46,832 nt of DNA from an uncultured Methylococcaceae bacterium (GTDB taxonomy: Bacteria > Pseudomonadota > Gammaproteobacteria > Methylococcales > Methylomonadaceae): the NCBI GenBank assembly GCA_903866825.1, contig CAIPPE010000267.1, positions 1 to 46,832 of the forward strand, written 5' to 3'. The notes under the pieces were generated by a model. It saw only the letters and a list, made by a program, of their open reading frames with translations, ran no database searches and was not told the origin of the DNA. The translations under genes and the position numbers were made by a program. Of this stretch, positions 36,987 to 39,406 are shown one piece after another (the stretch's first letter is position 1; every line of letters starts with the position of its first letter).

Positions 36987-37565
36987 TCATTTTTTCAGCA
37001 TACCCAGCTCGGCTTTCTTTTGTTTCACACGCTCAGCTTTTTCTTCAAGTTCTTTAACTTTACGTAAACAACGTGCTTCATAGCGTTTCTTTGCTAATTG
37101 TGAAGCAGCGTAATTATCAGTCTGAACAAGAGACTGGTTCTCAACAGCCAGTGATACGGGATGCATAACGATACAATCAACTGGACAAGGAGCGATACAA
37201 AGCTCACACCCAGTGCATTCTGAAGCAATAACAGTATGCATAAATTTTGCAGCGCCTAAAATTGCATCAACGGGACAGGCTGCGATACATTTAACACAAC
37301 CAATACACTTATCTTCAATAATGAAAGCAACCTGTTTGGGTTTATGCTCACCATATTCCGGGTTAAGTGGTTTTGGGTTTATATTTAATAAACGTGCTAA
37401 CTTAACAATACCTAAATCACCACCCGGTGGACACTGATTGATATCAGCAAGCCCTGAAGCAATAGCTTCAGAATAAGGACGACACCCTTGAAAACCACAT
37501 TTTCTACATTGCGTTTGCGGCAAAATAGCATTTATTTGATCAATCACGATTCTAACTTCTAACAC
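36987..37565 (-). CDS. RnfB-like iron-sulfur protein without membrane anchor
   Basis: A 192-residue protein. The N-terminal 4Fe-4S domain has cysteines C20, C23, C28 and C45 in the RnfB spacing ([17 protein letters not shown], then NQCPPGG). Two 4Fe-4S ferredoxin motifs follow ([14 protein letters not shown] and [14 protein letters not shown]). In E. coli RnfB an N-terminal membrane helix of about 25 residues precedes this domain; here it is missing and a basic, coiled-coil-like C-terminal tail of about 45 residues ([20 protein letters not shown]) is present. No other rnf gene is near. It could be a soluble electron carrier. Confidence 0.87.
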
Positions 37566-37693: not shown

Positions 37694-39406
37694 TTACTTT
37701 TTTTTACCAAACAAACCCTTTAGTTTTCCTTTAACACCCACATCAGGATCAGGTGTAGTTTCAACAATAACAGCTTCTATTTCAACAGACTCTAGTTCTA
37801 CTTTAGGCGTCACAGTCGTAGTTTTACCAAAAAGACCTTTAAGCTTTGCATTTACTTTAGCAACATCTGCTTTAACAACCTCCATAGGCCCTAATTGAGC
37901 AGCCAACCGGGGAGTATCAATTTCTGGCTCTGGCTCTGGCTCTGGCTCTGGCTCTAGCTCAACAACCACTGGAATAACCTCTTTTGCTTCTGGTTGCTCA
38001 GCATCGAGATTCTTTGAATTATTTTTGCCAAACAGACTTTTAAATTGCCCGCTTAAACCGATAGCCTTTTCCTTATCACCACCACTCTCAACCGATGGCT
38101 TTATAACTTCTGGCTCAGCATTAACGAAAGTAGGCGTTATCTCAATCTCTTTAGGCGCATCAATAACCGATAACGCACTATTTTTACTAGTAAATAAACC
38201 TTTAAACTTACCTGCCACACCAGCAGAGCGCTCTTCTATTGGACGTACGTCTTTAAATAAAGGCTCTGGGTCAATATCAGGAACACTTGAAGTTAAATCA
38301 ACATGATCTATTTTTTCATCAATCAATATTGATGCTTTTTTGCCAAACAATCCTTTAAATTTTCCAGTAAAACTACTCTCAGGCTCATTCTTAACCGAAC
38401 TGGGTGTTTCTATCAACTCCTGAGAAGGCTCTATTAAAACAGGCTGCTCAATCTTATGAACAATAGCTGGCGCTTCTTTGATTTCAACCTCAGGCTTTAT
38501 CTGAATCGGTGTTGACTCTTCCTTTTTAACTTCATGCGCTAATTTAACTTCAGAAACGATCTTAGTGTTTTCAAGTTGAACAATTAAAGCTTCCTTAGCT
38601 TTTAACACCTCTTTCAATTCACCTAATTGCTGCTGTGTATTAACCAAATTCAGTACTTGCTGTTCTAGTTCAGGAATACGAGCCAGTTCAGAATTATTTT
38701 TTTCAATCGTCTCAGCTAAAACTTGTTGCGCCTTATCTTGCTGAACCTTCAGGATAGATTTTTGATCTTCAAGCGCTTGCTCCAATAGAGATAGCTTTTC
38801 AGTTTGAACCGCTAATGTTGCCTGCAATGTTCTTGCTACCGACTCATTCTCAGCACTTTTTATCTTTTCAGCTTGTACTGATTCTTGTAACTGAACTTTA
38901 GACTGCTGCTCGGTTACTAGTTTTGTCACTAAAAGATTGACCACCCTGTCATGCTGTTGCCACAAGCCTTCTGCTTTAATATCACCCATAATTGGCAAAG
39001 GACGCTCGCCCAAATCAACACGGGTAGATAAAGACTTAATAAGATCAGCTATCTGGGTGTTACGGTGTTTAAGCTGCTCCTCAAGTTTTTTAGCTTTTTC
39101 TGTCTCTATTTGAGCCGTATGCTGGTCTTTTTTCAATTGCTCATTGTTAGCTGCCAAAACTTCTTGCATTGCTTGTAACTGTTGTTCTGAGACAGTCAGT
39201 GCAGCATTAAGGCTAATTGCCTCTTCGTTATGCGCCTTTTCTCTAACGAGAACTTTCCTTTTTAAAGAAGAAATCCGAAAGCCGTAGAGAATAGCTGTGA
39301 CAAAAAAAACTACGGCAGCTAACACAGAGGCATAAAATGGGTTAGTCAAAGTGAGTGCAAGCCAATCGGCTAGTGTACTGTTAATAATGGGTAAATAAGT
39401 TTCCAT
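37694..39406 (-). CDS. Membrane-anchored coiled-coil protein with five LFGKK-like motifs
   Basis: About 570 residues from the ATG at 39406; a TTG five codons upstream is also open but lacks a ribosome site. One membrane helix lies near residues 19-42 (ASVLAAVVFFVTAILYGFRI), then a long coiled coil to about residue 300 (many EQ, KL and LEQ heptads). The last 230 residues are acidic and low in complexity, and carry five copies of one short motif: GKFKGLFGKK, GKFKGLFTSK, GQFKSLFGKN, AKLKGLFGKT and GKLKGLFGKK, the last at the very C-terminus. A PE dipeptide run sits between copies three and four. I do not recognise the family. The layout suggests a scaffold with repeated binding peptides. Confidence 0.7.
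   Translation of the reverse strand: METYLPIINSTLADWLALTLTNPFYASVLAAVVFFVTAILYGFRISSLKRKVLVREKAHNEEAISLNAALTVSEQQLQAMQEVLAANNEQLKKDQHTAQIETEKAKKLEEQLKHRNTQIADLIKSLSTRVDLGERPLPIMGDIKAEGLWQQHDRVVNLLVTKLVTEQQSKVQLQESVQAEKIKSAENESVARTLQATLAVQTEKLSLLEQALEDQKSILKVQQDKAQQVLAETIEKNNSELARIPELEQQVLNLVNTQQQLGELKEVLKAKEALIVQLENTKIVSEVKLAHEVKKEESTPIQIKPEVEIKEAPAIVHKIEQPVLIEPSQELIETPSSVKNEPESSFTGKFKGLFGKKASILIDEKIDHVDLTSSVPDIDPEPLFKDVRPIEERSAGVAGKFKGLFTSKNSALSVIDAPKEIEITPTFVNAEPEVIKPSVESGGDKEKAIGLSGQFKSLFGKNNSKNLDAEQPEAKEVIPVVVELEPEPEPEPEPEIDTPRLAAQLGPMEVVKADVAKVNAKLKGLFGKTTTVTPKVELESVEIEAVIVETTPDPDVGVKGKLKGLFGKKK
37923..37958. repeat. Hexanucleotide tandem repeat encoding Pro-Glu
   Basis: TCTGGC occurs five times in a row (37923-37952) and a sixth copy differs by one base (TCTAGC, 37953-37958). 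On the coding strand it is CCAGAG, encoding Pro-Glu. Since the unit is six bases, gain or loss of units keeps the frame and changes only the length of the linker. Confidence 0.9.

Follow-up and report, generated by a model that had tools for sequence, protein, structure and literature searches.

The window, here meaning the whole 46,832-nucleotide stretch of DNA that was analysed, encodes a membrane-anchored protein whose family is real, conserved and lineage-restricted and has a multivalent tail. The layout of a single membrane helix, a long helical region and an acidic disordered tail with repeated short basic motifs is kept across the family, and the motifs are under purifying selection. 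Judged from the sequences, it is well supported that these motifs do a job. Membrane would be their likeliest single ligand, with a protein partner as a close rival.

The gene lies at 37694–39406 on the minus strand and encodes 570 residues followed by a stop; its open reading frame, start and stop were verified. A mechanical reading of the frame begins five codons upstream at a TTG, and the ATG at 39406 was taken as the start because the conserved METYLP-type N-terminus, common to the homologues, begins there. Residues 1–21 (39344–39406) form a conserved N-terminal helix, METYLPIINSTLADWLALTLT, predicted to be non-cytoplasmic from the alignment, an AlphaFold2 helix at 4–21 and the charge bias. 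The sole transmembrane helix, placed by hydropathy and charge at residues 24–48 (39263–39337; core 24–42), is followed by basic residues and then by a first long helix at 49–130 (39017–39262), which AlphaFold2 predicts and which has a coiled-coil-like period near 3.5 within 50–130. A conserved break, DLGERPLPIMGD, at residues 131–142 (38981–39016; seen in the alignment and two AlphaFold2 models) separates this helix from the second long helix at 143–285 (38552–38980; alignment and AlphaFold2), which starts with a conserved KAExLWQQHDRV. Conservation of the head peaks in the alignments at the break, DLGERPLPxxxD, and at the KAExLWQQHDRV after it, and D131–P136 are invariant in 28 close relatives. 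The remainder, residues 286–570 (37697–38551), is a Pro/Val/Glu-rich acidic tail, assigned as disordered from its composition and a pLDDT below 50 over most of its length.

The single anchoring helix claimed in an earlier note on this DNA was confirmed by hydropathy of the source protein, with one membrane helix near residues 24–42 and no other 19-mer at threshold. Family-wide, the helix was over threshold in 77/84 proteins and a second such stretch was found in 0/84. Acidic residues precede and basic residues follow the membrane helix in the source protein, so the bulk of the protein, including the tail, should be cytoplasmic; a charge bias for a cytoplasmic tail was seen in 83 of the 84 family proteins. 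The same note had proposed a long coiled coil, which is half supported, since periodicity was significant in only one of the two long helices (residues 50–130, p = 0.016) and heptad periodicity in the second was not (143–285, p = 0.35). The AlphaFold2 model of the source protein, built with 28 aligned relatives (mean pLDDT 60, pTM 0.26), has helices at 4–21, 23–130 and 143–285 and a weak one at 508–525, with most of the chain after residue 284 disordered. A protein of another genus was modelled with the same plan (helices 5–21, 23–122 and 132–229).

Five motif copies were found in the tail, all on the minus strand: GKFKGLFGKK (residues 348–357; 38336–38365), GKFKGLFTSK (399–408; 38183–38212), GQFKSLFGKN (453–462; 38021–38050), AKLKGLFGK(T) (520–528; 37823–37849), which overlaps the end of the weakly predicted helix, and GKLKGLFGKKK (560–570; 37697–37729), at the C-terminus. 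Gene and motifs had been described in the earlier note, and the motifs start within three residues of the positions given there. When the last 265 residues were shuffled, core motifs matching the consensus of that note occurred 0.00025 times per shuffle, compared with five observed. The tail is acidic and disordered as had been claimed, with 52 D/E against 21 K/R in the 232 residues outside the motifs, and 8 of its 11 F/W/Y residues lie inside motifs, the other three outside. At the DNA level, four of the five belong to one repeat family; compared over 37 nt with the fourth member, the other three show 62–78% identity, which does not suggest recent duplication. Searching the genome with a degenerate DNA pattern that recognises three of the copies gave no further match. 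The linker also contains a six-base repeat, TCTGGC, in 6.3 copies (37923–37960), which corresponds to an EPEPEP stretch.

The protein had been called unrecognised, with no characterised protein known to share its layout, and the searches returned nothing or generic coil matches. The source protein had no match over the curated cut-offs of Pfam and NCBIfam or at E ≤ 0.01 in PHROGs and PADLOC. Across 36 members, the N-terminal region matched 21 Pfam families at E ≤ 0.01, each in three members or fewer, and 32 NCBIfam families; among the matches listed, SMC_prok_B was the commonest (17/36, best E 1.1e-8). Matches to OSTbeta, DUF5300, TrlF, SMC, Crescentin rod and keratin were rejected as below cut-off or generic to coils. 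An SMC ATPase head was absent from the Pfam matches of the full source protein at E ≤ 1, a DivIVA domain was absent both from these 21 Pfam families and from the full source protein, and no mitofilin match was found by Pfam in the full source protein or the 36 N-terminal regions. No PDB structure matched at E ≤ 0.001 in a fold comparison, and no work recognised as being about this protein was found in the open-licence literature. The libraries searched contain no description of the family, but the protein is no orphan, being present in 115 genomes of 13 genera of the organism's own family.

The source genome (4.28 Mb, 99% complete) matches PF02461, the pmoA/amoA family, and named genome bins carrying relatives of the gene are labelled Methylococcales, Methylococcaceae, Methylobacter and Crenothrix; together these identify the source organism as a methanotroph. 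Searching with the single sequence detected the gene in 34/35 genomes of its own genus and 0/26 others. Across the family, single-sequence search found it in 102/179 genomes, a profile of close relatives in 103/179 and a broader profile (A3), the most generous count, in 118/179. A profile rich in distant members (A4), run order-wide, matched 118/234 genomes, with 115 genomes of 13 genera in the organism's own family, all at E ≤ 6e-10, and one good (genome G040, E 1.2e-15) and two weak matches outside it. The figure of 115 excludes six weak A3 matches (G074, G102, G106, G161, G191 and G203; E 3e-5 to 1e-3) that A4 did not recover, and G158, G159 and G170 were recovered by A4 only. L147, the only convincing homologue from outside the family, is without a C-terminal motif, and 14/231 other genomes of the class gave weak partial matches (E ≥ 8.9e-6), mostly to coil stretches. 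About a third of the family genomes (61/179) had no detectable copy, including PF02461-bearing genera such as g30. One genome (G084) carries, beside an ordinary member, a second divergent one, L132, with the C-terminus QLKGFYQKLLSKS; matches in two g14 genomes (L126 and L127) begin much like it.

No link with pmoA was seen in co-occurrence over the 179 family genomes. PF02461 was present in 161/179 and the protein in at most 118/179, which indicates that the protein is not needed for methane oxidation, and 11 of the 18 genomes without PF02461 match it; perhaps it is not needed for intracytoplasmic membranes either. Gene neighbourhood was conserved among close relatives, where cobO lies directly upstream in the order hemL-cobO-X at 11/12 named loci, although L041, at least, belongs to another genus and encodes the same protein as L141. 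The arrangement was found at 1/40 loci of other genera, where no cluster of unannotated neighbours spanned more than 4/40 loci. Just downstream of the gene in the window (36987–37565) is an RnfB-like ferredoxin of 192 aa. Its match to the 190-position rnfB profile starts at profile position 34, and the membrane anchor is therefore probably missing.

To compare constraint among regions, codons were classed as motif, linker or helical head in 39 proteins, arranged in 13 groups of close relatives. The motif class was the most constrained of the protein, with 85.9% identity and a pN/pS of 0.145, compared with 75.2% and 0.273 for the head and 58.1% and 0.493 for the linker. Synonymous divergence was similar throughout (pS 0.551 for motif, 0.499 for linker and 0.483 for head). 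In all 12 groups with motif codons, pN/pS was lower for the motif than for the linker; the remaining group (J) carries a variant that the pattern misses and so contributed no such codons. The earlier note had asked whether homologues vary in motif count while keeping the motif, and had held that a motif absent from homologues or diverging as fast as the linker would carry no conserved function. The number of copies per protein did vary, from 0 to 6 under a fixed pattern, and the motif itself was kept and diverged more slowly than the linker, so the refuting condition did not hold.

A motif was found within 12 residues of the C-terminus in 82/84 proteins, compared with a mean of 9.75 and a maximum of 18 in shuffles; the two without were L103 and L131. 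The scoring rule was written after these sequences had been seen, and 20 further proteins outside the motif definition served as a check, although some of their tails are near copies of earlier ones (up to 39/40 residues). Of these, 19/20 had the C-terminal motif (shuffles: mean 1.7, maximum 5), including three of the four distant members; the sole exception was L147, from another family of the order. Left out of the set of 84 are L023, which has a broken frame or an ambiguous base; L029 and L105, which lie at contig ends; L016, nearly a copy of L015; L041, identical to L141; the open-ended L124, L127 and L138; and the genome_contigs loci L031–L039 and L042, which were taken as copies of contigs already included.

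At the C-terminus the motif most often reads K-[LFI]-K-[GNS]-[LF]-[FYL]-x-K, frequently with another hydrophobic residue or lysines after it, and the net charge of the last 16 residues is at least +2 in 81/82. The residue after the second Lys is G, N or S in 76/82 and the last motif position is Lys in 73/82; the hydrophobic positions swap among L/F/I/M/V and F/Y/L/I. In 9/84 relatives (L008, L009, L011, L019, L020, L026, L027, L028 and L030) the tail has an internal variant that is aromatic and ends in an acidic residue, K[YFH][YF]FG[DE]. Among distant members, L149 has several Trp variants in its tail, such as KPEWFNFFKKA, and L150 has tail repeats such as NLFAKLKESAK together with the C-terminus LKAWYKKFTGNK.

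The motif resembles the end of a protein encoded in the same genome. The MinD of the source genome terminates in KKGFFRKLFGG, its membrane-targeting end, and copies 1 and 3 (GKFKGLFG and GQFKSLFG) are identical to its GFFRKLFG at 5/8 positions, the other copies at 3–4/8. Tail repeats of the form GFMKx[LI]F in two relatives, L102 (three copies) and L103 (five copies), are identical to it at 3–5/8. In the background, 51/193187 8-mers had 5/8 identity to a source motif and 10/680 frames had one near the end, both upper bounds because some family members remain in that background. Scored with the motif profile, the MinD tail reached 10.8 bits in a different register, compared with 31.5 bits for the source C-terminus, and 3/635 background tails reached the MinD score, two of them being fragments of this family. 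The only above-cut-off FtsY of the source genome (L167:1211-3133, contig C55) is, as assembled, a single open frame of 640 aa in which a COX15/CtaA domain (43–287, E 4.6e-25) precedes the SRP-receptor domains (351–637). This may be a natural fusion or an assembly error, and the fused membrane domain makes the gene useless as a second own-genome MTS yardstick.

Helical moments of the motifs in the source protein were not significant (shuffle fractions 0.24–0.52), although the tail of MinD itself gave 0.12, likewise not significant, and the test thus has little power for motifs this short. The C-terminal motif windows had a median shuffle rank of 0.086 family-wide, with 48/82 at or below 0.1. 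Ten 20-mers into which the motif continues in proteins of other genera, such as KFKHMFGNAMQQIAKLDEKL, all had significantly strong moments (10/10, p 0.002–0.011), but these were picked by a pattern requiring spaced hydrophobic residues, which favours amphipathic stretches; eight more C-terminal stretches chosen by eye gave p 0.011–0.26, four of them below 0.05. In an unselected test, the numbers of windows at p ≤ 0.05 in other genera were 26/104 for motif 11-mers against 10/108 for random tail, and 21/67 for motif 20-mers against 19/108. For close relatives the corresponding numbers were 2/79 against 3/60 for 11-mers and 15/79 against 9/60 for 20-mers. The picture is mixed: motif stretches of close relatives do not clearly exceed random tail, those of other genera exceed it moderately, and amphipathicity is clear only in some of these other genera. 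The motifs were not folded as confident helices in the AlphaFold2 models of the source protein and of one protein of another genus.

Our preferred explanation, which we favour tentatively and at somewhat less than an even chance, is that the protein acts as a helical strap anchored in the membrane, with a tail that attaches by avidity to a membrane surface, possibly that of intracytoplasmic membranes. One helix would anchor the protein in the inner membrane with its bulk in the cytoplasm, and a long, probably oligomeric helical stalk would hold out the flexible acidic tail. Each short basic motif, nearly always including one at the end, would bind membrane weakly, in the manner of the MinD membrane-targeting sequence, so that several weak copies per chain, multiplied by several chains per stalk, would give firm yet reversible attachment. 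This could occur in cis, on the same membrane, as a strap or fence, or in trans, on a facing membrane, as a tether; in these methanotrophs the intracytoplasmic membranes would be the obvious candidate for a facing surface. We lean to the membrane because of the likeness to the MinD tail of the genome and the amphipathic extensions in some other genera. Counted against this reading are the source motifs without a significant moment, the register mismatch in the MinD profile comparison and L147 without its C-terminal motif, and the preference for G, N or S after the second Lys exceeds what binding to lipid by itself would require and hints at a specific partner.

A specific partner is the core of the closest alternative, slightly less probable in our estimate, by which each motif is a linear docking site for a single conserved protein and the membrane-rooted scaffold gathers several copies of it. 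The largely fixed small residue after the second Lys and the Lys at the last position agree with such docking, as do the stronger constraint on the motif than on the helical head, the internal aromatic variant in nine relatives and the lack of clear amphipathicity in the motif stretches of the source genus. However, the hydrophobic positions are interchangeable, the motif extends into an amphipathic stretch in some other genera, and no neighbouring gene marks a partner, with cobO and neighbour clusters rarely shared beyond close relatives among neighbours that are partly identified. The earlier note had suggested multivalent docking to a partner or to membrane. Its multivalent part is well supported by the motif constraint, the variable copy number and the C-terminal copy; of the two ligands, membrane is the one we lean to.

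Two further explanations would give the motifs other roles or none. We consider it doubtful that the basic aromatic motifs act as stickers for the acidic linkers of other chains, producing a membrane-bound condensate or patch: the concentration of tail aromatics in the motifs and the acidity of the remaining tail fit this, but the linkers diverge fast, and so tight a C-terminal motif would be superfluous for a simple sticker. That the repeats are duplication leftovers in a low-complexity tail with no conserved role is very improbable. Copy number does differ between relatives and the linker does contain the six-base repeat array, but the strong purifying selection on motif codons contradicts this explanation, and the well-diverged DNA copies and the terminal copy in both protein sets count against it as well.

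Several known systems share parts of this arrangement. The MinD MTS is likewise a short basic C-terminal element, and that of the source genome has a partial sequence likeness to the motifs, whereas the present family has up to six pattern matches in the disordered tail of a transmembrane-anchored protein, no ATPase, and a motif helix predicted at most weakly. Mic60/Mitofilin and its alphaproteobacterial relatives have one membrane helix, a long coiled coil and a role in internal membranes. The parallel would lie in the single membrane helix, the long coiled coil and a possible internal-membrane role, but no mitofilin match was found and the bulk of the protein is predicted to be cytoplasmic from the charge bias, while that of Mic60 is periplasmic. 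DivIVA/Wag31 is reportedly a coiled-coil membrane tether of bacteria; the likeness, by description only, is that of a bacterial coiled-coil protein, but the DivIVA domain is missing here and the candidate binding elements are the tail motifs and the transmembrane helix. Bacterial microcompartment encapsulation peptides are said to be short helical peptides on a disordered linker, a resemblance again by description only to the short peptide and linker seen here, where several copies occur in one membrane protein.

For the preferred membrane reading there is a precedent in that a single E. coli MinD MTS is reported to be too weak to keep a protein membrane-bound, and fusing two copies improves binding (PMC8155659). 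According to PMC9445010, the intracytoplasmic membranes of Methylococcus capsulatus originate from the inner membrane and stack by unknown means. A more specific conjecture, which we regard as unlikely, is that the protein is a dedicated intracytoplasmic-membrane tether, rooted in one sheet and gripping the facing sheet through its MTS-like motifs, with stalk length and motif number setting the spacing or firmness of the stack. To our knowledge, no structural factor has been described for methanotroph intracytoplasmic membranes. A conserved membrane protein that is confined to one lineage and combines a predicted cytoplasmic stalk with anchor-like repeats is a testable candidate for shaping or holding the membranes of these bacteria, and if its motifs bind lipid, it would provide a natural example of a single chain carrying many weak membrane anchors.
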